Positions 12,902 to 28,172 of a stretch of 64,000 bases of DNA are shown one piece after another. The notes below the pieces were generated by a model that was not told where the DNA came from, did no database searches, and was given only the letters and a program-made list of their open reading frames with translations. The first letter of the stretch is position 1, and each line of letters opens with the position of its first letter. The stretch spans positions 1 to 64,000 of the forward strand of contig JAJYOU010000014.1 of assembly GCA_021795965.1 (NCBI GenBank). The letters run 5' to 3'. The position numbers and the translations under genes were made by a program. Origin of the DNA: Chloroflexota bacterium. Lineage in GTDB: Bacteria; Chloroflexota; Anaerolineae; Anaerolineales; Villigracilaceae.

Positions 12902-12920
12902 AAAGCCCTGAAAGGGCTTT
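12902..12920 (-). terminator. Possible terminator/attenuator hairpin between arsR and the Ehr-like operon
   Basis: aaagccctgaaagggcttt perfect hairpin; on the minus strand followed by ttactttttac. Short and weak U-tract. Confidence 0.4.
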
Positions 12921-13033
12921 GGGAATTCCGACGGGGTTAGCTGACGGGTTCGGGTTCCAAAAGTGACCCTACCGGGGTTGACCCGGATTCACCCCAAGTT
13001 GACTGGGTTCCCCGCGTTGGCAGACTTAAGAAT

Positions 13034-13408
13034 TTAGTTGTGATCCATGAATGCTGCATGCTTTGAATGATTGTCTTGCGCGTTTTCCTCTTCCATCAAT
13101 TCGAGGGTCGAGCGGTTATCGATCAGGTGATTGGTAAATATCCGCCGGGCAACATCCAGCAATTCCAAAATTTCAGGGTCGCGAACGCGATAATAGACCG
13201 TCGTTCCAGCTTTGCGGCTCTCGACGATGTTCTTGTGACGCAAAACGGACAAGTGCTGCGATACGCTCGACGATTCAATCCCGAGCTGATCCTGGAGCTG
13301 GGTCACGCTCAATTCATCCGTCCCGAGCATTTCCAATATTTTGATGCGTGCCGGGTGGGCTAATGCCTTGAAAAATTCAGCTTTAAAATTTCGCAGTGGA
13401 TCCTGCAT
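13034..13408 (-). CDS. ArsR-family winged-helix transcriptional regulator (no cysteines)
   Basis: 124 aa; FFKALAHPARIKILEMLGTDELSVTQLQDQLGIESSSVSQHLSVLRHKNIVESRKAGTTVYYRV; no Cys residues. Confidence 0.93.
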   Translation of the reverse strand: MQDPLRNFKAEFFKALAHPARIKILEMLGTDELSVTQLQDQLGIESSSVSQHLSVLRHKNIVESRKAGTTVYYRVRDPEILELLDVARRIFTNHLIDNRSTLELMEEENAQDNHSKHAAFMDHN

Positions 13409-13848: not shown

Positions 13849-14760
13849 TTACTTCCAGATCGGGCAGTTTTTCCAATCGGTTGGAAATCCCATTGAATAC
13901 AATGGAATATCTGGATAGGCTTGTAGCAACATTTCTAGGCGGTTTTGCCAGTCGCCTTGTGGATCAATGAAACCCAACAAGTATCGCAGCAGCGCTAACA
14001 CTGCATAAACTCTGCGGTTATCCATACCTTGGGGTATATAAAACTCCGGATGATGTTTTGTATCTGGAATAAAGGGTCGAATCGGTAGTTCCCGGTTCCA
14101 TAAGCGCCCGTGATGTGCGCAGACATTGCGGATGTAATTAATTGTCTTTAACCAAGACAGCAGAACCGGTGGATAAAGATCAAAAGCGCGCGCCAATTGT
14201 TTTTGCTCTGTTCGATCTAAGTGGCGAAACAAGGTAAACAACTGGCCAAATGTCATGACTTCCACTGCCATCCATAGAGGTAGACGCGGTTCACTGGTAT
14301 ATTTCCCCTGAAATCGCGCTACGAATTCCTCGCTGCTACGTCTGACTGCTTCATCCACTTCGTACATCAATTGGGAAAAATCGCTCTGTGTGAACCCTAA
14401 CTGGTAAGTATTGATGTCACAATATCCAAAAGGACCATATAAAAGCGTACATTGTTCTACCATTCTTGTGCGTAGAATTGCCACTTCAACGTATTCTACG
14501 GCGTCCATAATGAGAAGACGCAGTTGCCGGTCAAATATGTAACGCCTCCAAACCATATCAAACGTTGTACCAGCTGCAAAACGTTCACTTCCTGTGGTCG
14601 GATCAAACTGCTTAAACGGATACCAGTAAGCACTTAGTCGGTAATAATTTACCACACTCAGGTGGCTGACAAGTGTTTTTTTATCTACGTTAAGGAGACC
14701 ACGGTCTAACAATCTTTGAGCTTGCTGTTCAAATGAAAGAGCTGGTTTTGTATAATGCAT
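13849..14760 (-). CDS. Abi-like protein (Abi_2 / AbiD-AbiF family), candidate abortive-infection gene
   Basis: 303 aa; LSFEQQAQRLLDRGLLNVDKKTLVSHLSVVNYYRLSAYWYPFK, IFDRQLRLLIMDAVEYVEVAILRTRMVE, INYIRNVCAHHGRLWNRELPI typical of Abi_2. Confidence 0.9.
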   Translation of the reverse strand: MHYTKPALSFEQQAQRLLDRGLLNVDKKTLVSHLSVVNYYRLSAYWYPFKQFDPTTGSERFAAGTTFDMVWRRYIFDRQLRLLIMDAVEYVEVAILRTRMVEQCTLLYGPFGYCDINTYQLGFTQSDFSQLMYEVDEAVRRSSEEFVARFQGKYTSEPRLPLWMAVEVMTFGQLFTLFRHLDRTEQKQLARAFDLYPPVLLSWLKTINYIRNVCAHHGRLWNRELPIRPFIPDTKHHPEFYIPQGMDNRRVYAVLALLRYLLGFIDPQGDWQNRLEMLLQAYPDIPLYSMGFPTDWKNCPIWK

Positions 14761-15941: not shown

Positions 15942-16391
15942 GCTATTCTCCTTGAGTTCCGATCTGATTTAAGCAGGTTTCGCGTCATCAATTCCAAAAT
16001 ATTCTGTCCATGCCCTGGCTGACCTGATTGCTTGTCCCGGCTGAAACATGACGGCGGGGGTGTGGACGAAATCCTGCAGCCTGATTCTATTTTACATCAG
16101 AAGATGCGCATTCAGGCTTGGTTCTGAGAAGCAAGGCGTCCCTTCATTTAATACATTTGATAGAGGCTGAACCTGACCCGCTGGAGGTGCTCTGAAAGCC
16201 AGGGTCGCCAGAATTCCAGCAGATCGCCGCTTTCATAACGCAGCAATGAAATAAGCGCCTGGCTTGTGGTTGGGAATCCTGCCATGTCAGGAAATTCCTT
16301 ACAAATTACTTTCTTTTATCATTGAAAAACCTGCCAAGTGCCACTGTACAAACGTCTCGAAACTCGTTAAAGTAAAATCAGCCTGGAGAAA

Positions 16392-17318
16392 ATGATGAAG
16401 CGAATACGATTTTTGTTTATTTTTGTTTTTCTGATCTCTGCCTGCTCACAAATCAACAACGCCACGCCCGTCCCTGTCATTGATTTGACCAATCTCCAAC
16501 CACTTCCAACAGCCGTCGATACGAATGTTAAACCGCTGCGGGTTGCGATTGCGGCAGTTTTTTCGCCGCAGGGATCCGCCGAGAGTTATGCCCCCCTGCT
16601 GGAATATCTCAGCACCAAACTCGGTCGCCCGGTTGAACGCGTCCAGCGCAGAACCTACGCCGAGGTCAATGATCTGTTGCGCACCGGTGACGTGGACCTG
16701 GCTTTTGTCTGCACCAGTTCATACCTGCTGGGGCATGCACAGTTTGGGCTGGAGCTGCTGGTAGTGCCGCAGGTGCATGGCAAAACAACCTACCATGCCG
16801 ATATTATCGTGGCAACCAAAAGCCCTGCCAAAGAATTCGCTGACTTGAAAGGCAAAATCTTTACCTTTACTGATCCGACCTCGTTCACCGGGCGCGTTTA
16901 CCCCACCTACCTGCTGCAAAAAATGGGCACTTCCCCCGAATCATTTTTCAGCCAGACTTTTTTTTCTTACAGTCACGATAAAGCCATCTATGCGGTCGCA
17001 GAAGGTCAGGCGGATGCAGCCTCGGTGGACAGCATGGTCTACGATTTTGCGCTCAAACGCGACCCCTCCCTGGCGGATCGCATCCGCATCATCCACATTT
17101 CGCCTGCTTTTGGTATTCCGCCGGTGGTGGTCAGCCCATCCATCCGCCCAGAATTGCGGACCGCCTTGACCGATATCCTGCTGGGCATGAACCTCGATCC
17201 AGCAGGTTTGATCGCCCTGCATGCACTCGATTACGACCGTTTTATCGCAAGCAGCGATGACAAATACCAGAGCGCGAAGGAAGTTGAATCGTCTGTAAAC
17301 TTGAGCAGCAATCCATGA
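16392..17318 (+). CDS. PhnD-like periplasmic substrate-binding lipoprotein, likely sensor input for the adjacent two-component system
   Basis: 308 aa; lipobox LISACS; LRVAIAAVFSPQGSAESYAPLLEYLSTKLGRPVERVQRRTYAEVNDLLRTGDVDLAFVCTSSYLLG typical of PhnD-like proteins. Confidence 0.88.
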   Translation: MMKRIRFLFIFVFLISACSQINNATPVPVIDLTNLQPLPTAVDTNVKPLRVAIAAVFSPQGSAESYAPLLEYLSTKLGRPVERVQRRTYAEVNDLLRTGDVDLAFVCTSSYLLGHAQFGLELLVVPQVHGKTTYHADIIVATKSPAKEFADLKGKIFTFTDPTSFTGRVYPTYLLQKMGTSPESFFSQTFFSYSHDKAIYAVAEGQADAASVDSMVYDFALKRDPSLADRIRIIHISPAFGIPPVVVSPSIRPELRTALTDILLGMNLDPAGLIALHALDYDRFIASSDDKYQSAKEVESSVNLSSNP

Positions 17319-18778
17319 TGAAACCCGTGATTGAGGAATTGCTTAACCGGATCTGGATGATCATTGGTGCGGTGAGTATACGCATCAAAATCATGGGGAT
17401 TGTGATCATTGGCACACTCCTGCTCAGTGTCACATTAGCGCTGCAGATGCGCGCCTCGGTCACCAACCTGATGGAACAGCAGTTGGAAAGCCGGGGGGTT
17501 TCCATCACCCGTGACCTGGCGGCGCGCGCCACGGATGACATCCTGGTGAACGACCTTTTCGCATTGCGCCAGCTCCTGCTCGAAACTCGGACGAACAACC
17601 CGGATGTCATTTATGCCTTTGTCATCGATCCCAAGGGGAATATACTCGCGCATACTTTTGGGGAAGGTTTCCCCTACGGGCTGGCAAATGTAAATCCGGT
17701 CGCCGGCGACCAGCATCACCAGACGTTTTTGTATTCAGATGGTCAGGACATGGTTTGGGATATCGCCGTGCCTATCTTCAATGGGCGCGCCGGAACCGCG
17801 CGGGTTGGGCTTACTGGTTCGGTCATCACCAGGAATGTCTTAATGCTGACTTCGCAGGTGCTGCTGACCACGGTCGTGGCATTGGCAATCGGATTAATTG
17901 CGGCTGCCCTGCTGGTTTATGTAATTTCGCGCCCGATTTCCGAACTTGTGACAGCCACCCGCAGCGTTGCAACAGGGGATTTCACACCGCGCATTCGCAG
18001 TTGGGCGAACGATGAAATTGGAGAACTTTCCGAAGCTTTCAACGCCATGACCGCTGAACTTGCCCGTTCAGATGAAATCCGGTCTGAGCGGGAAGATTTA
18101 CGGCGCCAACTGCTTGAAGGGGTCATCTCGACGCAGGAGAATGAACGCCGCCGGATTTCACGCGAACTGCACGACAGCACCGCTCAAAACTTGACCTCGC
18201 TCATCGTTGGTCTCAAGAATATGGATACCATTTGTGACAGTCCCATAATACACGCCCAGGCGCAGGATTTACGCAACATCACCGGGCGGGTGCTTGACGA
18301 TGTCCACAACATCGCGTTTCAACTGCATCCCACCGCTCTGGATGACCTGGGTTTGCCCGCAGCGATTGAGCGGCTGGTGCACGAATGGCAGAAACGCCAC
18401 CAGATCTCGGCAGATTCCGTGGTTCACCTCGGCGACCAAAGACTGCCGGAAAATATTGAAACTGCACTCTACCGCATCATCCAGGAAGCCCTGACGAATG
18501 TCGCCAAACATGCTGACGCACATAACGTTTCGGTGCTGGTGGAGCGCCGCGAGAACGAGGTGGTGGCGGTGGTGGAGGATGACGGCAAGGGCATGCAGCC
18601 CACCAATTTGTCGCGCGGCAGGCTCGGGGTGGCGGGGATGCGCGAACGGGCAGAACTCCTGGGCGGGAAAATGACGATCGAATCGACGCCAGGCGCCGGG
18701 ATGAGTTTGTTCTTCCAAATTCCGATCCCGCAATTGGAAGGAGGGAATCTTGAAAACCCGAATCCTGCTGGCGGATGA
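17315..18778 (+). CDS. Sensor histidine kinase (HAMP + HisKA_3 + HATPase_c, NarX-like)
   Basis: 487 aa; two TM regions, HAMP (SRPISELVTATRSVATGDFTPRI), RRRISRELHDSTAQNLTSLIVGLKNM, GRLGVAGMRERAELLGGKM; overlaps the upstream stop. Confidence 0.93.
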   Translation: MMKPVIEELLNRIWMIIGAVSIRIKIMGIVIIGTLLLSVTLALQMRASVTNLMEQQLESRGVSITRDLAARATDDILVNDLFALRQLLLETRTNNPDVIYAFVIDPKGNILAHTFGEGFPYGLANVNPVAGDQHHQTFLYSDGQDMVWDIAVPIFNGRAGTARVGLTGSVITRNVLMLTSQVLLTTVVALAIGLIAAALLVYVISRPISELVTATRSVATGDFTPRIRSWANDEIGELSEAFNAMTAELARSDEIRSEREDLRRQLLEGVISTQENERRRISRELHDSTAQNLTSLIVGLKNMDTICDSPIIHAQAQDLRNITGRVLDDVHNIAFQLHPTALDDLGLPAAIERLVHEWQKRHQISADSVVHLGDQRLPENIETALYRIIQEALTNVAKHADAHNVSVLVERRENEVVAVVEDDGKGMQPTNLSRGRLGVAGMRERAELLGGKMTIESTPGAGMSLFFQIPIPQLEGGNLENPNPAGG

Positions 18779-19403
18779 CCATGCCGTCTTACGGGCTGGC
18801 TTGCGCCTTTTGCTTGAAAATCAACCCGGTTTGGAAGTGGTGGGGGAGGCTTCTTCGGGGTTGGAAGCGCTTGATCTCGCGCCAAAATTGAATCCAGACC
18901 TGATCCTGCTGGATATCTCGATGCCGGGGCTGGGCGGGCTGGATGCCCTGCCGCTGCTGAGAAAAACCGTTCCAGCGGCCAGGTTGCTGATTTTGACCAT
19001 GCATGATGATCCGCACTATTTGCGGCGGGCGCTCAAGCAGGGGGCAAGCGGGTACATGCTTAAAAAAGCTGCTGACCAGGAATTGCTGGCGGCGATTCGG
19101 GCAGTCCTGCGCGGTGAGGTTTACGTGCACACCTCGATGACCCGCGTCCTGCTGGATGATATGCTAACAGACACGCCTGCCCCGCTCGAGGATGCCTGGG
19201 AAACCTTGAGTGAACGCGAACAAACCGTCCTCAAGCAGGTGGTGCTGGGGTATACCGGGGCGGAAATCGGCGAACAATTGAACCTGAGCATCAAGACCGT
19301 GGATACCTACCGCATGCGCGGCATGGAAAAACTTGGTTTACTCAACCGGGCGGCGTTGGTACGCTATGCATTGAAAAAGGGTTTGTTTCCGACCGACCTG
19401 TAA
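18750..19403 (+). CDS. LuxR/NarL-family response regulator
   Basis: 217 aa; receiver LLADDHAVLRAGLR, D-acceptor LILLDISMPGL, HTH LSEREQTVLKQVVLGYTGAEIGEQLNLSIKTVDTYRMRGMEKLGL. Confidence 0.95.
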   Translation: MKTRILLADDHAVLRAGLRLLLENQPGLEVVGEASSGLEALDLAPKLNPDLILLDISMPGLGGLDALPLLRKTVPAARLLILTMHDDPHYLRRALKQGASGYMLKKAADQELLAAIRAVLRGEVYVHTSMTRVLLDDMLTDTPAPLEDAWETLSEREQTVLKQVVLGYTGAEIGEQLNLSIKTVDTYRMRGMEKLGLLNRAALVRYALKKGLFPTDL

Positions 19404-19435
19404 GATTAAAAAATTGCTTCAAAAACCAGCAGAAG

Positions 19436-19461
19436 CAGCGGGCATGGTTGCCCGCTGTTTT
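19436..19461 (+). terminator. Rho-independent terminator after the response regulator
   Basis: cagcgggca-tggt-tgcccgctg-tttt. Confidence 0.8.
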
Positions 19462-19741
19462 GATTCAAGTCGAAGGTTTGGATTCCTCTGTCAAACCTCG
19501 TCGCTTCACGCTGGGGGGGAAAATGATATGGTGATCATTTCTGAATATTTTGCCTTCCCCGTTATAAAAAAGATCACAATCCCGAACGTCATTTGTCATT
19601 TATTTGTAAGGATTTTCTTGACACGCGATCAAAAAATGTAGGGCATTTCCCGCTATTGCAGCGCGGGTCAAACGGATAAAGTAAGACTAACGGAATTATC
19701 GGATCTTATTCCGAACCCAATTTATTAAAAGGAGAAGCGCA

Positions 19742-20587
19742 ATGACAAAAGAAGCATCTTTGTTGGATAAGTATGCTTCCGAGGCTTTCGCCGGGTTGGT
19801 TTCACCGGTTCTGGATGACTTGAATATTTCACTCGCTCCAGACGATGATCTGACGAAAGAGGACGCCCTGGTCCGCATGACCGCGGAATTGAAGCGCGCC
19901 CTGGAAAAACCCGCCTCGGAACGGCGTTGGGTGATGGTGATTGACTTGCGCAAATGCGTGGGATGTACTTCCTGCACCGTGGCATGCATCGCCGAAAACA
20001 AATTGCCGCCGGGAGTGGTTTACCGCCCGGTCACGATCGAGGAAATTGGTACTTATCCCAACGTGAGCATGAAATTCCTGCCACGCCCATGTTTTCAATG
20101 CGACAATCCACCCTGCACTGAAGTCTGTCCAGTGACCGCCACCTATAAAAATGAGGAAGGCATCGTTGTGATCGATTATGACAAGTGCATTGGCTGCCGC
20201 TCCTGCCTGAATGCATGTCCTTACGGCGCCCGTACCTTTGATTATGGCATGACGTACACCCAGGCTACACCCGATGGTTTCGATTTCATCCTCGGGCAAT
20301 CGAAGGCTGATGATTACGAGCTGATGGCAAATTCGGAATATGGTGAAAACCGTGTTCGCAAGGGACACGTCTCCCCGGTGGGCAATGCACGAAAGTGTCA
20401 CTTCTGCCTGCACCGCATCAAAGACGGCATGTTGCCAGCCTGTACCTCCACCTGCATCGGTCGCGCCACTTATTTTGGTGATGCCAATGACTCAACTTCC
20501 ATGGTGGCAGAACTCATCAACAAGCCCAACGCGATTCGGCTCAAGGAAGAACTGGGCACTGAACCGCGGGTCTATTACATTGTCTAG
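19742..20587 (+). CDS. 4Fe-4S electron-transfer subunit of molybdopterin oxidoreductase (TtrB/PsrB-like)
   Basis: 281 aa; four Cys clusters ([50 protein letters not shown]...CTSTC). Confidence 0.93.
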
Positions 20588-20596
20588 GAGGCTGAG

Positions 20597-21727
20597 ATGA
20601 ATAAAAAGATTGCCTACGTTTTAGGTATGATCACCCTCATAATTGGTCTCTGGGGATTTTATGATCGCTTTGCTTTTGGACATGAAAACGCTGCGTATGG
20701 TTCATATGTATCCTGGGGGCTGTGGGTGGCGTTGTATTTCCTCTTTGGCGGGATTGCGGTTGGATGCTTCATCTGGGCCAGCCTCGACCTCCTCTTTGAG
20801 GTTCCCGCTCTAAAAGGAACCGGTCGCATTGCCCTCTGGGCGGCACTGGTCGACCTGGGAGTGGGGTTGTTGGCGATTGGTCTTGATCTCGGTCATTTCG
20901 AACGCTTTTACAAAGCTTTTACAAATCCCAACTGGACATCCGGCGTGATTGAAGATGTCTGGGGGTACACCATCTTTGGAATTTTGACGGTGTTGGCCCT
21001 GATCTTTTCCATTAATCAGAACAAATCGGTCGCGTTAAAAGTTGTCATGATCCTTGGCTTGATTACCGCTATTTTTGCCGCGGCTGCGCCTGGCAAGATG
21101 CTGGGGATGGACGCTTCGCGCATGTTCTGGCATTCCTCTTTGCTGCCCGTCCAGTTTATTTTCCTGGCATTGACGAATGGCGCTGCAATGCTGCTGGTCA
21201 TCCGCGGTTTCTTCGTCTCACCGGCTGAAAATGAAAAACCCTTCTCCATTCTGAGCATAAGCCTGGTCGGTTTGCTGGCTTTTAATCTTTATTTTGTCTA
21301 TCTTTTCTTCTCGCAGGGGCTTTCAGGCAGAATACCTGATATTGTCCAGCCGGTTAATGCGATATTGAATGGGCAGTACAGCCTGCTCTTCTGGGGCGTC
21401 CAAATTGTGCTTGGCGCCATCCTGCCCATCATCATCCTCACTCAACGCAAGTTGGCGGGGAGCGGAGCCCTGGTCGGGCTGATGGGTCTGTTGGTGCTGC
21501 TTGGCAATGCTGTCGCCCGCTACCTGATCGTCGTTCCCGCTCAGCAAGTGGAATTTCTGCCAAATCTTTCGACCGCATTCTCCGGGCGCGGACTGAACCT
21601 GGCATACATGCCAAGTGCGACTGAATGGGCAGTGGCATCTGGTCTACTGGGCGTGGTCATTCTCGGCATGCTGGTGGGAGCTGATTTCATCCTGCCGCTC
21701 GTTTCGAAATCTCATAAGGAGGCCTAA
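20597..21727 (+). CDS. NrfD/PsrC/TtrC-like integral membrane quinol-interacting subunit
   Basis: 376 aa polytopic; YVSWGLWVALYFLFGGIAVGCFIWAS; position between B and A subunits. Confidence 0.88.
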   Translation: MNKKIAYVLGMITLIIGLWGFYDRFAFGHENAAYGSYVSWGLWVALYFLFGGIAVGCFIWASLDLLFEVPALKGTGRIALWAALVDLGVGLLAIGLDLGHFERFYKAFTNPNWTSGVIEDVWGYTIFGILTVLALIFSINQNKSVALKVVMILGLITAIFAAAAPGKMLGMDASRMFWHSSLLPVQFIFLALTNGAAMLLVIRGFFVSPAENEKPFSILSISLVGLLAFNLYFVYLFFSQGLSGRIPDIVQPVNAILNGQYSLLFWGVQIVLGAILPIIILTQRKLAGSGALVGLMGLLVLLGNAVARYLIVVPAQQVEFLPNLSTAFSGRGLNLAYMPSATEWAVASGLLGVVILGMLVGADFILPLVSKSHKEA

Positions 21728-21728
21728 C

Positions 21729-24700
21729 ATGACGGAGCCTACTTCCAAAAAACAAGAAATTTCCCGCCGTGATTTTCTCAAAATTTCCGGTGTCACGGGT
21801 GCGACCGCTGCACTGCTGGGGAATATGCACGAGGTATTTGCCAAAACCCAAAATACACTGGCTGCATCCGGGGAAGGCAGTTACTTCCAGGCCAGCCCGG
21901 AAAGTATCATCTACGGCGAGTGCCTGCAGTGCAACACGCAGTGTACCGTCAAAGGCAAAATTCAGGATGGTGTTTTGGTGAAGGTGGATGGCAACCCCTA
22001 CAGCCCGAACAACATGATGACCCCGCTGGCGTATGACACTCCTCTCAAGGAATCCGCGCTGGTCGATGGCAAGCTCTGTCCCAAGGGACAGGCCATGGTC
22101 CAGACGCAGTATGACCCGTACCGCATCGTCAAGGTTTTGAAGCGCACCGGCAAACGCGGCGAAAACAAGTGGCAGGTCATTCCATTCGATCAAGCCATCA
22201 ATGAAATTGTCAACGGCGGGAAGCTCTTTGCGGATGCCGGCGAAGACCGCGTGGTGCCAGGTTTCAAGGATGTGCTGGCAACCAAGGATGCCAAGGTAAT
22301 TTCCGGTTTGAGCGCGGATGCTGCGGCTGTGACAGGCGGCAAGATGAAATTGGATGAATTCAAGACCAAGCACGCCGCCGAACTTGACCTGTTGATTGAT
22401 CCTGAGCACCCAGACCTGGGTGTCAGGAACAACCAGTTTGTCTTCCAGGCTGGACGTATCGAGCCGGGGCGCAACAACTTTGCCCAACGCTTTACGCTTA
22501 ACTCTTTCGGATCAAAGAACTGGTACGATCACACGACCATTTGCGAGCAATCCCATCACATCGGCTACACCTACGCAACCGCGCAGTATTCAGGCGGCAA
22601 ATGGGCGACTGGACCGAATCACATGAAGCCCGATACGATCAATTCCGAGTTCGTGATCTTTTGGGGCACCAGTCCTTTTGAAGCTAACTTCGGACCAACC
22701 ATCATGAGCGAAGCCGTGACCAAAGCCGTGGTTGAACATGGTCTCAAGTATGCGGTTGTGGATCCGCGCATGTCAAAGACCGCCGCCAAAGGTTGGTGGG
22801 TACCGGTTCAGCAAGGCGGCGACCTGCCGCTGGCACTGGCGTTGATCCGCTGGATTTTTGAGAACCAGCGCTACGATACCAAATTCCTTTCCTCTGCCAA
22901 CAAGGCAGCCGCACTGGCTGCAGGTGAAAAATCCTGGACGAACGCCACCTGGCTGGTCAAGCTGGATGACAAGGGTCACGCGGGAACTTTCCTGCACGGT
23001 TCTGATCTGAAGCTGGTTGAGAAAAAAGATGAAACATCTGCGGATGGCAAAACGGTCACGACGACCTGGGTTACCCCCGACGGCGTCGTTTTCAAGATTG
23101 ATCCTTTTGTTGCATTGACCGCAGGCAGCCCCGTATTGGTTGACCCGGCAGACGATAAAAACTCCGTCACTGGCGACCTGCTGGTGAAGACGGCGGTGCA
23201 GGGAATCAACGTCGAAAGCAGCCTGCAATTACTCCTGGATGAAGCCTCTGCACAGTCGATGGAAGATTGGGCAAAACTGGCTGGCGTGGATTTAAGCACC
23301 ATCACCCGCCTGGCTGATGAATATACCTCCCACGGCAAGAAAGCCGGCGTCGAGTTCTATCGCGGTGCGGTTCAACACACCAACGGTTATTACACCGCTC
23401 AAGCACTGGTTGCGCTCAACATCCTGATTGGAAATATTGACTGGAAGGGTGGTTTGAGCAAGGGCGGCGGTGGTTGGAATGCCATTGGGAATGCGGATAA
23501 GCCCTTCGACCTTGGTGCAGATCATCCCGGCAAGCTTGGTGCATTTGGCATCAAGGTGACCCGCGAAGGTGATACGTATCAGAAAACAACTCTCTTCACG
23601 GATTATCCTGCGAAACGACCGTTCTATCCTTACACCAGCAACGTCTACCAGGAAATCATCCCTGCCGCTTACGCGCAGTACCCGTACCCGGTCAAAATCT
23701 TGTGGCTGCACATGGGCACACCTGGTCTTGCAGCTCCTGCCGGCACTGAACAAATCAAAATGTTGCAGGATACTGATAAGTTCCCGCTCTTCATCGCGGA
23801 TGATATCGTCATTGCTGAAACTTCGATGTACGCCGATTACCTCTTCCCTGACCTGACATTTGTCGAACGCTGGGCTTTCACCAGCGCACCTCCGCCTGAA
23901 CCGATCAAGAATATCCGTGTGCGCCAGCCAATGACTGCGCCAGTGCCAGAGATTGTCAAAGTGGACGGCGAAGAAATGCCAATTTCAATGGAAGCCATCA
24001 TGATCGCCATTGGCAAAGCGCTTAATTTGCCGGGTATTGGCAAGGGTGGATTCGACAAGCACGGCGACCTCAACCGTCCTGAAGATTACTACCTTCGCGG
24101 TGTTGCCAATATCGCCTTTGGCGACAAGAAAGATGCTGCAGACGCTGTAAAGGATGCGGACGACGCCGAAATGGAAATTTTCCGCAAGGCGCGCGCTCAC
24201 CTGCCCAAAGCCGTTTTTGACGAGCAAAAATGGGTGGCTATCGTTGGTGAATCACTCTGGCGAAAAGTCGTCTATGTGCTTAACCGGGGTGGACGTTTCG
24301 ACTCGCCCGCGAACAGCTATTCGGGTGCATTCCAGGCTCATCCCTTCGCTTCTCTCATGAACATCTTTGTCGAACCGATCGGCAGCGGAATAAATAGCAT
24401 TACCGGCAAACCTTTTAGCGGCGTCCCGCACTATGAACCCGCCCAAAACAGCACCGGCGTGCCTGTGAATAACAAGGACTACCCATTCTCGGTCGTCACT
24501 TACAAGGAGGTCGTTGGCTGTCAAACTCGCACCATCAGTAATTATTGGACGCAGGGCGGCACGGGCATCGTTCCGACCAACCATGTGCTCATCAATCCCG
24601 TGGATGCCAAACCGCTTGGATTGAAAGACGGCGATGTTGTGAAACTAACATCGAGTACCAATCCGAATGGAACATTCGACCTGGGGAACGGTCATGTGGA

Positions 24701-24965
24701 AACTGTAAAGGGTCAGGTCAAAATGACGCAAACAGCCCGCCCAGGTTCCGTTATGGTTTCGTTCCACTTTGGTCACTGGGCATACGGCGCGCGCGATGTG
24801 GTCATCAACGGTCAAACCGTCAAAGGGGACCCGCGCCGCAACGTTGGAGTTTGCTCGAACCCCGTCCTTTTGCTCGATGAAGGCACGAAAACCACCTGCC
24901 TGACCGATCCAATCGGTGGCAGCGCCAGCTTCTATGATTCGAAAGTGAAACTAGTCAAGCTCTAG
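21729..24965 (+). CDS. Molybdopterin-dependent oxidoreductase catalytic subunit (TtrA-like; tetrathionate or related oxyanion reductase)
   Basis: ~1078 aa from ATG 21729; Tat signal SRRDFLKISG, CLQCNTQC...LCPKGQ 4Fe-4S motif, TICEQSHH near the expected Mo ligand. ORF-track start 21615 lies inside the upstream gene. Confidence 0.85.
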   Translation: MTEPTSKKQEISRRDFLKISGVTGATAALLGNMHEVFAKTQNTLAASGEGSYFQASPESIIYGECLQCNTQCTVKGKIQDGVLVKVDGNPYSPNNMMTPLAYDTPLKESALVDGKLCPKGQAMVQTQYDPYRIVKVLKRTGKRGENKWQVIPFDQAINEIVNGGKLFADAGEDRVVPGFKDVLATKDAKVISGLSADAAAVTGGKMKLDEFKTKHAAELDLLIDPEHPDLGVRNNQFVFQAGRIEPGRNNFAQRFTLNSFGSKNWYDHTTICEQSHHIGYTYATAQYSGGKWATGPNHMKPDTINSEFVIFWGTSPFEANFGPTIMSEAVTKAVVEHGLKYAVVDPRMSKTAAKGWWVPVQQGGDLPLALALIRWIFENQRYDTKFLSSANKAAALAAGEKSWTNATWLVKLDDKGHAGTFLHGSDLKLVEKKDETSADGKTVTTTWVTPDGVVFKIDPFVALTAGSPVLVDPADDKNSVTGDLLVKTAVQGINVESSLQLLLDEASAQSMEDWAKLAGVDLSTITRLADEYTSHGKKAGVEFYRGAVQHTNGYYTAQALVALNILIGNIDWKGGLSKGGGGWNAIGNADKPFDLGADHPGKLGAFGIKVTREGDTYQKTTLFTDYPAKRPFYPYTSNVYQEIIPAAYAQYPYPVKILWLHMGTPGLAAPAGTEQIKMLQDTDKFPLFIADDIVIAETSMYADYLFPDLTFVERWAFTSAPPPEPIKNIRVRQPMTAPVPEIVKVDGEEMPISMEAIMIAIGKALNLPGIGKGGFDKHGDLNRPEDYYLRGVANIAFGDKKDAADAVKDADDAEMEIFRKARAHLPKAVFDEQKWVAIVGESLWRKVVYVLNRGGRFDSPANSYSGAFQAHPFASLMNIFVEPIGSGINSITGKPFSGVPHYEPAQNSTGVPVNNKDYPFSVVTYKEVVGCQTRTISNYWTQGGTGIVPTNHVLINPVDAKPLGLKDGDVVKLTSSTNPNGTFDLGNGHVETVKGQVKMTQTARPGSVMVSFHFGHWAYGARDVVINGQTVKGDPRRNVGVCSNPVLLLDEGTKTTCLTDPIGGSASFYDSKVKLVKL

Positions 24966-25032: not shown

Positions 25033-25185
25033 ATGTTTGGACTTGGAGTTCCTGAATTACTGATCTTAATGGTCATCATCATCATTCTCTTTGGTGCCGG
25101 TCGCATTGGAAAAATTGCCGGCGAGCTTGGATCTGGTATTCGAGCATTCAAAGAAGGCATAAACGAAGATAAGCAAGATAATTAG
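25033..25185 (+). CDS. tatA: Sec-independent protein translocase TatA
   Basis: 50 aa MFGLGVPELLILMVIIIILFGAGRIGKIAGELGSGIRAFKEGINEDKQDN; FG-(x)-GR hinge and amphipathic helix. Too short for the ORF track. Confidence 0.92.
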   Translation: MFGLGVPELLILMVIIIILFGAGRIGKIAGELGSGIRAFKEGINEDKQDN

Positions 25186-25235
25186 TGACTTCCATCACTA
25201 TCTCATGGTCGAAAACGTGATATATTAAATTAATT

Positions 25236-25360
25236 CTCCGAAGCCTGTCTGCCTAAACAAAATTGCATGGCGCACAGGACAGTAACACAAAATAACTTTT
25301 GTGTTACCAGGTAAAAGTGGAAACGCTTTTGCTCCCCGTACTTGGAAAGGAGACCAGGCT
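25236..25360 (+). ncRNA. Molybdenum cofactor (Moco) riboswitch
   Basis: Conserved core ...AAAAGTGGAAACGCTTTTGCTCCCCGTACTTGGAAAGGAGACCAGGCT resembles the remembered E. coli moaA leader (CTTCGCCTCCCGTATCTGGAAAGGTGTACATGGCT); terminal helix agcctg/caggct; upstream of Mo-metabolism genes. Confidence 0.85.
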
Positions 25361-25373
25361 CAAGTTTTCTACG

Positions 25374-25407: not shown

Positions 25408-25496
25408 GCGTTGCGGTTTCTCCCGTGGAGGAAACCCAACAGTAAGTTTAAAACTGCTTCAATTTCAGTTCGCAGCGACATGAAGTGGAGAACGAA

Positions 25497-26117
25497 ATGA
25501 ACATCCAATACCTGCTCGAAAAAGCATCCCAAGACCACTCGCACATTTGTCCGCGTCAAATCCTTGGCGTTCGTCTCGGATTGGCTGGCATGCACGCCCT
25601 TGGTTTTGATGAACCGCCAGCCAAGAAACGCCTGCTGGTCATCACTGAAACAGATGGTTGTTTTACAGATGGACTCTCCGCCTCGACGGGCTGCAGCGTT
25701 GGGCACCGCACCCTGCGCGTGGAGGACTACGGTAAAACAGCCGCGGTTTTTGTGGATACGGTTACGGGTCAGGCGCTGAGAGTTTCCCCTTTGGCAGATA
25801 TCCGGCAGAAAGCTTTAGTCTACTCGCCGCACGAAACACGTCATTACTTCGCTCAGATGCAGTCTTACCAGGTCATGCCAGAAAACGAGATGTTTGCGGT
25901 GACGCCCGTAGCCCTCAACTTTTCCATCTCTGCCCTTATTTCGCGGGCTGGCATCCGGGTTGACTGCGATGTTTGCGGAGAAGAGATCATGAACGAGCGT
26001 GAGGTTAAACTCAACGGGCAGACCCTTTGCCGTGCCTGCGCCGGCGGCGGGTATTACCTCGTCGATGAACATAATTTTATTATTCCAAGCAGCATCCAGC
26101 ATGAAATTGCAGGTTGA
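25497..26117 (+). CDS. FmdE-like protein (formylmethanofuran dehydrogenase subunit E family) with C-terminal zinc finger
   Basis: DHSHICPRQILGVRLGLAGMHALG, ETDGCFTDGLSASTGCSVGHRTLRVEDYGKTAAVFVD, CDVCGEEI...CRACAGGGYY. RBS ggag upstream of ATG 25497. Confidence 0.88.
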   Translation: MNIQYLLEKASQDHSHICPRQILGVRLGLAGMHALGFDEPPAKKRLLVITETDGCFTDGLSASTGCSVGHRTLRVEDYGKTAAVFVDTVTGQALRVSPLADIRQKALVYSPHETRHYFAQMQSYQVMPENEMFAVTPVALNFSISALISRAGIRVDCDVCGEEIMNEREVKLNGQTLCRACAGGGYYLVDEHNFIIPSSIQHEIAG

Positions 26118-26140: not shown

Positions 26141-27370
26141 ATGTTTCAGGATACACGAAAGCAAAAAATGCAAAAACAACTTACTGGTAACCCGTTTACT
26201 TTTTCGCTGGCTGAATTTTCAGGATCCCTTGGTGATTTGGGCGTGATGCTGCCGCTCATCCTGGCGCTCATCTCCCTGAATGGCATGGATGCCACGGCTG
26301 TTTTTGTCGGGATTGGGCTGGCTTATTTACTGGTGGCATTGGTTTATCGCTTGCCCATCCCGGTCCAGCCGCTCAAGTCAGTTTCCGCCCTTGCCCTGGC
26401 GCTGGGTCTATCCCCGGTCGTCATCATCACCGGTGCCATCTGGAATGCGGTCACATTCCTGGGTCTCGGGCTGGTGGGACATGAACAGTGGATCCAAAAA
26501 GCTTTCCCCAAACCGGTGGTGCGCGGCATTCAACTTGGCCTGGCATGGCTCTTGATCAATTCTGCCTGGACTTTGATCAACAAAACTCCCAACACCTGGC
26601 AGGGAGGTTTGACTCTTTTTAATGGCGTCCAGGCTATTTCCTGGGTCTGGATTTTAGTGAGTGGGGCAGTCATTTTCCTGCTGGTTTTCCTCTCCTGGCG
26701 GCGTGATTTTGCAGCCCTGGGAGTTGTTGCTTTTGGGATTGGCATTTCCTCCTACCACCTTGGACTGCCACCGATTGGCTTGCATTTCACGTTGCCAAAA
26801 ATTCTGCCGCTCATCCCAACCTGGGGGCAGCTCTGGCAGGGCTTGATCCTGCTCGCCATTCCACAAATCCCGCTCAGCCTGGGAAACTCGATCTACGCTA
26901 CAGCCGATGCGGCGCGGGAATACTTCGGTGAGAAAGCCAGCCACGTCACCGAGCGTAAACTGATGTTGACCATGGGCGCGACGGATGCCATGACCGCTTT
27001 GATTGGCGGGGTTCCGCTCTGTCACGGCTGCGGCGGGCTGACGGCGCATTATCGCCTGGGCGCCCGCAGCGGCGGTGCTCCGCTCATGCTGGGTGGTATT
27101 TTCCTTTTCCTGGGGTTATTTGGCGGCGATGCGAGTTTAAACCTCTTCCGGCTGATCCCGTTCCCCGTGCTGGGGGTCTTACTGATGTATGTCGGTTTCC
27201 AGCATATGCTCCTGGCGCGTGATCTGCGCGGCTGGCAAGCCTGGCTGAGCGCCATTCTGGTGCTTGTCCTTTCGATCTGGTCAGGCAACCTGGCGATCGG
27301 TTTCATCAGCGCGGCTGGTTTCTATCATGCCTGGAACTGGCTGGTTCCCCGTATTTCAAACAATGGCTAA
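26141..27370 (+). CDS. MOT1-family molybdate/sulfate transporter-like protein
   Basis: 409 aa polytopic; FSLAEFSGSLGDLGVMLPLILAL, PIPVQPLKSVSALAL, GGVPLCHGCGGLTAHYRLGARSGGAPLMLG. ATG 26168 is an alternative start. Confidence 0.88.
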   Translation: MFQDTRKQKMQKQLTGNPFTFSLAEFSGSLGDLGVMLPLILALISLNGMDATAVFVGIGLAYLLVALVYRLPIPVQPLKSVSALALALGLSPVVIITGAIWNAVTFLGLGLVGHEQWIQKAFPKPVVRGIQLGLAWLLINSAWTLINKTPNTWQGGLTLFNGVQAISWVWILVSGAVIFLLVFLSWRRDFAALGVVAFGIGISSYHLGLPPIGLHFTLPKILPLIPTWGQLWQGLILLAIPQIPLSLGNSIYATADAAREYFGEKASHVTERKLMLTMGATDAMTALIGGVPLCHGCGGLTAHYRLGARSGGAPLMLGGIFLFLGLFGGDASLNLFRLIPFPVLGVLLMYVGFQHMLLARDLRGWQAWLSAILVLVLSIWSGNLAIGFISAAGFYHAWNWLVPRISNNG

Positions 27371-28172
27371 AATACGCATTCTGGTCCGCGGCAGCGGCGA
27401 TATTGGATCGGCGGTTGCCTGCCAGCTTTTTCGGGCAGGCTACGCAGTGGTGATCCACGATATTGCAGAGCCGGTGGCTACCCGCCGCAAAATGGCGTTC
27501 ACTGATGCTATTTTTGATGGAAGCGCCAGGCTGGAAAATGTGGAAGCCCGCCTGGTTGAGAAAGTCTCATTGTTGGATGGTTTGCTGGCAGTTCGTGAGA
27601 TCATCCCGCTCACGATCCTAAATTTCCGGGAACTTCTCCAGGCGATGCAGCCTCAAGTGCTGGTGGATGCCCGCATGCGAAAACACTCCCAGCCTGAGAA
27701 CCAGCGCCAGCTGGCTGCGCTCACGATCGGGTTGGGACCCAATTTTATCGCCGGTCAAAGCGTTGACCTTGCCGTTGAAACCACCTGGGGCGATACCCTT
27801 GGGAATATCATCCGCGAGGGATCAACCAGCCCTTTGGCTGGTGAACCCAACCCGATTGGAGGGCACACCCGCGACCGGTACGTCTATGCACCCTGCGCCG
27901 GGGTCTTTCATACCTCCCATCAGATTGGCGACATCGTCAGCCAGGGAGAAGAAATTGCCCGGATCAACGAAACACGCCTGGCGGCACCCCTGGGCGGCGT
28001 CATTCGCGGTCTGACCCACGACAGCGTGCCGGTCGAAGTTAATACCAAGGTCATCGAAATTGACCCCCGCCTCGAAAATCCACAAATTTCGGGCATTCTC
28101 GCACGCCAGGCGCGCATTGCCAGGGGCGTCTTGCTCGCCATTCAAGCCTGGGAACAAAATCCTGGCAATTGA
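27363..28172 (+). CDS. YqeB/EF2563-like selenium-dependent molybdenum hydroxylase maturation protein
   Basis: RILVRGSGDIGSAVACQLFRAGYAVVIHD, VDARMRKHSQPENQRQLAALTIGLGPNFIAGQSVDLAVETTWGDTLGNII; start overlaps the preceding stop (ATGGCTAA). Confidence 0.85.
   Translation: MAKIRILVRGSGDIGSAVACQLFRAGYAVVIHDIAEPVATRRKMAFTDAIFDGSARLENVEARLVEKVSLLDGLLAVREIIPLTILNFRELLQAMQPQVLVDARMRKHSQPENQRQLAALTIGLGPNFIAGQSVDLAVETTWGDTLGNIIREGSTSPLAGEPNPIGGHTRDRYVYAPCAGVFHTSHQIGDIVSQGEEIARINETRLAAPLGGVIRGLTHDSVPVEVNTKVIEIDPRLENPQISGILARQARIARGVLLAIQAWEQNPGN

Follow-up and report, generated by a model that had tools for sequence, protein, structure and literature searches.

An ArrXSR-type sensor module and its putative operator beside a molybdoenzyme of the TtrA/SrdA lineage in Chloroflexota

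Gene content of the locus

The 64,000-nucleotide stretch analysed here (the window; positions 1 to 64,000 of contig JAJYOU010000014.1 in assembly GCA_021795965.1, from a Chloroflexota bacterium) carries at 16392–24965 six genes, here called X, S, R, B, C and A, which lie in that order on the + strand. An initial annotation had read them as a tetrathionate-reductase-like locus with a "split TtrS" sensor. The gene order that it gave (PhnD-like lipoprotein, HAMP/HisKA_3 kinase, LuxR-type regulator, then B, C and A) agrees with the domain matches, and its description of the input domain as a PhnD-like lipoprotein in its own right, with a gene coupled to that of the kinase, is borne out by a 4 nt overlap (ATGA) of X and S that is also found in most relatives. 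Dozens of Chloroflexota loci have the same set of six genes, so this arrangement is not due to chance. The module extends beyond the span first annotated and includes two operator-like palindromes (one of them 5′ of X), a tatA gene, a molybdenum cofactor (Moco) riboswitch and downstream molybdenum genes. Its central features are as follows.

16284–16304: palindromic operator-like site before X, ATGTCAGGAAATTCCTTACAA, 1 mismatch
16392–17318, +: X, ArrX/AioX-type periplasmic binding lipoprotein, 308 amino acids (aa)
17315–18778, +: S, membrane histidine kinase, 487 aa, with sCache_3_2, HAMP, HisKA_3 and HATPase_c domains
18750–19403, +: R, LuxR-type response regulator, 217 aa, TTG start
19604–19624: palindromic operator-like site before B, TTGTAAGGATTTTCTTGACAC, 2 mismatches
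19742–20587, +: B, iron-sulfur subunit, 281 aa, with four Cys groups and 4Fe-4S domains
20597–21727, +: C, NrfD-type quinol-interacting membrane subunit, 376 aa
21729–24965, +: A, molybdopterin catalytic subunit exported by twin-arginine translocation (Tat), of the TtrA/SrdA/alternative-Arr lineage, 1078 aa

The X protein has a lipobox (LISAC, Cys18) and matches the Phosphonate-bd domain with an E value of 1.6e-66. R consists of a receiver and a GerE/LuxR domain, and its TTG start at 18750 falls within the 3′ end of S. A has, besides its Tat signal, a 4Fe-4S domain and molybdopterin domains; its longest open reading frame opens at GTG 21615, and the most likely start is ATG 21729.

The XSR sensor and its operator

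The solved structures closest to X in sequence are ArrX of Chrysiogenes arsenatis (E 1.2e-56) and then AioX (E 8e-34), with PtxB and PhnD trailing well behind, and an AlphaFold model of X (predicted local distance difference test score 88.9) has ArrX as its top structure match (template modeling score 0.94 on the target); the leading fold matches are all ArrX, followed by AioX. The AioX pocket is formed by Tyr88, Cys106, Tyr131, Ser161, Ser163, His192 and Asp210 in AioX numbering (PMC5908839), and the X counterparts are Y89, C107, Y134, S164, T166 (Ser in AioX), H195 and D213. All 95 related X proteins compared have the same residue at six of these positions (Tyr, Cys, Tyr, Ser, His and Asp), and at the seventh they have Ser or Thr. 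Cys107 is absent from PhnD, and the TtrS of an Escherichia coli plasmid lacks most of the pocket. Pocket residues, fold and the XSR string beside a molybdoenzyme thus all place X in the ArrX/AioX subfamily, and it is quite likely, to judge from its sequence, that X is a sensor of the arsenic-oxyanion type.

Three-component XSR arsenic sensors have already been described (PMC5908839), and by every testable feature the window's module belongs to that family and is not a TtrRS system. Like ArrXSR of C. arsenatis, AioXSR and ArxXSR, it consists of a separate ArrX-type binding protein, a kinase and a regulator strung together beside a molybdoenzyme. Unlike them, it adjoins BCA genes of the TtrA lineage rather than ArrAB, AioBA or Arx, and its X is lipid-anchored; it also lies in Chloroflexota, which are not listed among the arrXSR hosts in PMC5908839. 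Its R is of the LuxR type, whereas the regulators in the Arx and Aio loci examined, among them those of Arx enzymes with the same XSR plan on Azoarcus and Sulfuricella plasmids, are sigma-54 regulators. With TtrRS-TtrBCA of Salmonella, and of the E. coli plasmid copy used for comparison (L071; L numbers denote loci and G numbers genomes compared), the module shares BCA order, subunit make-up, broad enzyme lineage and a PhnD-like input domain. However, the TtrS input domain is fused to its kinase and lacks the arsenic pocket, whereas the window kinase has an sCache domain of its own, and none of A, R and X reaches the cut-off of its Ttr model: X scores 21 bits against the TtrS model (cut-off 750) and R 62 bits against that for TtrR (cut-off 290). 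The "split TtrS" label therefore falls on pocket, model scores and nearest structures.

In a small tree of X proteins, the Chloroflexota sensors and ArrX form one side and AioX and ArxX the other, with support 99/100. The two sides differ in the letters after the pocket His (SHD on the ArrX side, HR on the other) and in AFxC versus AWxC, and the AioX/ArxX side has a one-residue deletion in a signalling loop that the Chloroflexota X proteins and ArrX do not have. X shares pocket residues and fold with ArrX, and its side of the tree and side-specific letters favour arsenate over arsenite as the ligand. Nearly all of the best 80 sensor matches in the genome contig search are from Chloroflexota, and no Firmicutes relative is among the plasmid matches listed. 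Three loci (L101, L149 and L153) each carry two XSR triads in tandem, the second sensor being about 42% identical to that of the window; such pairs may possibly serve two ligands.

Comparison of the R–B gap of the window with those of two relatives (L074 and L075) revealed conserved blocks that gave, by counting, the palindrome TTGTMRGG-N4/5-CCYKACAA. It took the place of a first consensus, TGTCAGGNNTTTTCCCGCTA, which mixed two elements. Of 57 loci with the sensor, 41 have the palindrome upstream of B at up to 3 mismatches (32 at up to 2, 8 perfect); none of 14 loci without a sensor has it. Among 290 shuffled promoters it occurs in none at up to 2 mismatches and in 11 at up to 3, a level at which matches can be chance, and 4 of 453 other flanking promoters have it at up to 2. 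The window holds just two sites at that threshold, those before X and before B. The operator evidence is the position of the palindrome and not the bare match, and it is very probable from these sequence comparisons that XSR controls BCA.

The enzyme, its relatives and its neighbours

The A protein scores 470.5 bits against the TtrA model NF011567 (cut-off 1750) and 122 bits against the ArrA model NF041714 (cut-off 1600), below threshold in both cases. A tree made by a quick method, with long branches flagged, places it in a TtrA-containing lineage apart from ArrA and Phs (SH-like approximate likelihood ratio test [SH-aLRT] 100); within that lineage the TtrA proteins form their own branch and the window A lies in a separate Chloroflexota radiation. 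The proposal that the catalytic subunit belongs to a TtrA-containing lineage with BCA order therefore stands, and the phylogeny that the initial annotation had suggested sets A outside the TtrA branch itself. True TtrA is ruled out by model cut-off and tree, and canonical ArrA by its score; nor is there a canonical ArrA at cut-off elsewhere in the window's genome, where one 234-bit match lies on contig C33. The lineage comprises TtrA, SrdA and an alternative arsenate reductase (PMC7331816, PMC10100899), and by its sequence A belongs there and is neither TtrA proper nor canonical ArrA. Among the substrates first listed, tetrathionate is now unlikely, as A neither reaches the TtrA cut-off nor falls within the TtrA branch, and arsenate is favoured by the ArrX-type sensor.

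The likely molybdenum (Mo) ligand of A is Cys272 in HTTICEQSHHI, which is aligned and invariant; the motif at this site is CEQSHH in the window and CGLAYR in TtrA. Two enzyme subtypes can be told apart here, CExSHH (the window type) and CQGSL. A Tat signal on B is given as a feature of TtrA systems (PMC2500031); by a simple pattern it is absent from the window B and present in 21 of 73 related B proteins, and being mixed within this radiation it is of little use as a marker of the Ttr clade. Compared by description, SrdBCA and the alternative (archaeal) arsenate reductase share the lineage and the Cys ligand, and Srd by name the BCA order (PMC7331816, PMC10100899). A BCA enzyme on Citrobacter arsenatis plasmid NZ_CP037863 (L070:7004-12399) is alike in its order, in CExSHH at the Mo ligand and in an A subunit 35% identical to that of the window, and it lies between arsRDABC and further arsenic genes. 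It differs in that no XSR was seen beside it and in that its A, on a long branch, is nearer TtrA in the tree. Plasmids of C. freundii, Salmonella, E. coli and Enterobacter carry near-identical copies. A cited paper reports arsenate respiration without ArrA in Citrobacter strain TSA-1.

Among 400 Chloroflexota genomes, 36 were found to have the enzyme. Several classes of the phylum have XSR next to BCA, and the module is apparently present in Chloroflexus aurantiacus; no description of it in Chloroflexota was found in the literature searched, subscription papers being mostly outside that search. Four Dehalococcoides-like genomes with 19–28 reductive dehalogenase matches each (G007, G048, G090 and G030) have a CQGSL-type BCA enzyme without XSR (L055, L067, L051 and L052).

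Sensor and enzyme have been reassorted: in L074 and L075 X, S and R are 77–84% identical to those of the window and A just 52% and 43%, and in L039 A is 74% and X 55% identical. Closely related XSR genes also adjoin other enzymes. Those in L089 and L119 are ArrA-type (full-length NF041714 matches of 1283 and 1306 bits, under the cut-off of 1600); the window's genes stand in the order BCA and not in the AB order of canonical ArrAB. A third type of 861–862 aa with an N-terminal CWIGKQDCG, whose best curated model is PhsA (about 237 bits, cut-off 694), lies at these positions.

L080:8198-10783
L081:9603-12188
L099:2276-4864
L127:10890-13475

The X tree places the ArrA-linked sensors of L089 and L119 as sister to the clade with the window's sensor (SH-aLRT 87; joint clade 99/96 in a careful tree), and therefore one sensor clade serves three enzyme types. 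The palindrome precedes the ArrA-type genes of L089 (2 mismatches) and L119 (3) and the third-type genes of L099 (0), L081 (2) and L080 (3); it was not found before that of L127. Three loci in which the surroundings of the sensor showed no enzyme (L083, L085 and L102) have it before the FmdE operon. The most economical interpretation is that the three types, one of them ArrA-type, share a substrate.

Downstream of A, the window continues as follows.

25033–25185, +: tatA, TatA-type translocase subunit, 50 aa; homologues adjoin the enzyme in relatives
25224–25368, +: Moco/tungsten riboswitch RF01055, 67.2 bits (gathering score 36)
25485–26117, +: FmdE-family protein with zinc finger, the most frequent module neighbour
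26141–27370, +: MOT1-family molybdate transporter
27264–28172, +: gene kept near the module in 8 relatives, without Pfam match and read from sequence as EF2563 type (molybdenum hydroxylase accessory); the listed reading frame start overlaps MOT1

By clustering, FmdE is the most frequent neighbour (39 of 88 loci); next come TauE-like permeases, ArsR-family regulators, Acr3-like transporters, MoaA and a MobA-like gene, with several of the identities assigned by reading the sequence. Nine of ten relatives examined have one Moco riboswitch each (L039, L040, L075, L080, L085, L089, L093, L096 and L111; the exception is L074). These lie near FmdE, including in one ArrA locus and one third-type locus, and so recur beside all three enzyme types; a pairing of FmdE with a molybdenum riboswitch was likewise not found in the literature searched, with the same limit on subscription papers. 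BCA of L040, among the nearest enzyme relatives (A 72% identical), is immediately preceded by acr3 and an arsR-like gene, and acr3 is within about 10 kb of the enzyme in 3 of the 16 genomes that have both, where 0.1 would be expected by chance (a rough estimate from genome sizes). Acr3-like genes broken by one stop codon are present in two Dehalococcoides-like genomes (G007:C1:1157632-1158687 and G020:C1:956061-957116). On the other side of the window module, on the − strand, are an Abi_2-family, abortive-infection-like gene just upstream (13849–14760, E 9.6e-52) and a c-di-AMP riboswitch (12912–13042, 79.5 bits) that precedes a minus-strand run of NADH-quinone-oxidoreductase-type genes.

Arsenate and the alternatives

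The substrate is most likely arsenate because the dedicated sensor is of the arsenate type, and on balance it seems probable that an ArrXSR-type, arsenate-responsive switch activates a TtrA/SrdA-lineage enzyme that acts as an alternative respiratory arsenate reductase; arsenate itself as the enzyme's substrate is favoured to a similar degree. This is supported by the kinship of X, the XSR–BCA linkage, the exchange of BCA for ArrA, the operator, the arsenic genes, the presence of an alternative arsenate reductase in the lineage and the Citrobacter plasmid BCA. Lipoprotein X, at the membrane's outer face, would bind an arsenic oxyanion, most likely arsenate, and when loaded would signal to the sCache domain of S; S would phosphorylate R, and R dimers would bind the palindromes before BCA and before X and so switch the enzyme on. 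BCA would be an exported quinol:oxyanion oxidoreductase in which C oxidises quinol, B passes electrons on via its four iron-sulfur clusters, and reduction of the substrate takes place in A at a Mo-bis(pyranopterin guanine dinucleotide) site with a Cys ligand. The tatA gene may serve export, and the Moco riboswitch, FmdE and molybdate genes cofactor supply.

Several points weigh against this interpretation. Ligand and substrate are both ones that we infer, and pocket residues by themselves do not fix the ligand (PMC5908839). The enzyme lineage also includes tetrathionate and selenate reductases, and SrdA was not placed in the A tree; the ArrA-type matches of L089 and L119 are below the ArrA cut-off of 1600. 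The palindrome consensus was derived from the same promoters on which it is counted, and its genome-wide matches at 2 mismatches equal the background (control) count, which makes such a scan unusable for defining a regulon. Arsenic genes lie near a minority of loci, and no acr3 was found nearby in the window or in the window's own genome, which is 62% complete.

A selenate (SrdA-like) or antimonate reductase, with the ligand of the ArrX-type sensor shifted accordingly, is rather unlikely. SrdA of Bacillus selenatarsenatis is in the same enzyme lineage, where sequence does not separate substrates, but the same sensor clade serves ArrA-type enzymes, and ArrX bound arsenate and, weakly, phosphate when selenate, sulphate, tetrathionate and thiosulphate were also tried (PMC5908839). 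The enzyme might instead run in reverse and pass electrons from arsenite to quinone, X then being an arsenite sensor like AioX and ArxX, and here the Arx enzymes of the Azoarcus and Sulfuricella plasmids offer the same XSR plan and some loci have acr3 nearby. This is quite unlikely, since X groups with ArrX away from AioX and ArxX (99/100), R is not of the sigma-54-dependent type of those Arx and Aio loci, and the known members of the enzyme lineage are reductases.

That the enzyme is a tetrathionate (or thiosulfate) reductase under a split TtrRS-like switch is very improbable: A, B and C do resemble TtrA, TtrB and NrfD and stand in the order of Ttr, but A falls far short of the TtrA cut-off and does not join the TtrA branch, X has no kinship to the TtrS input domain (21 bits) and retains the arsenic pocket that TtrS lacks, and no tetrathionate-linked genes were recognised among the module neighbours. 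X, as a member of the PhnD/PtxB superfamily whose relative ArrX binds phosphate weakly, could also sense phosphate or phosphite, its place beside the enzyme then reflecting phosphate-starvation control and not the substrate; against this highly improbable account stand Cys107, which PhnD lacks, the grouping of X with ArrX, and the conservation of linkage and operator with three molybdoenzyme types.

If the arsenate interpretation is extended to the phylum, it is possible, though somewhat short of an even chance, that across Chloroflexota one arsenate-sensing switch and its operator have been combined with three or more types of molybdoenzyme (TtrA-lineage BCA, ArrA-type and the unnamed 861-aa type), the commonest being a respiratory arsenate reductase so far overlooked, which spans the phylum and occurs in the model phototroph C. 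aurantiacus; the sensor-less cousins may be orphan molybdoenzymes of Dehalococcoides-like organohalide respirers. Surveys of arsenate respiration based on arrA would miss this enzyme or label it a tetrathionate reductase. Sensor and operator together provide a way of telling substrates apart in the TtrA/SrdA lineage, which sequence by itself does not do, and the question is directly testable in C. aurantiacus, a cultivable laboratory strain that apparently has the module. Should arsenate prove to be the substrate, this large phylum, which is common in groundwater and sediments, would gain a route by which arsenic is released as mobile arsenite.

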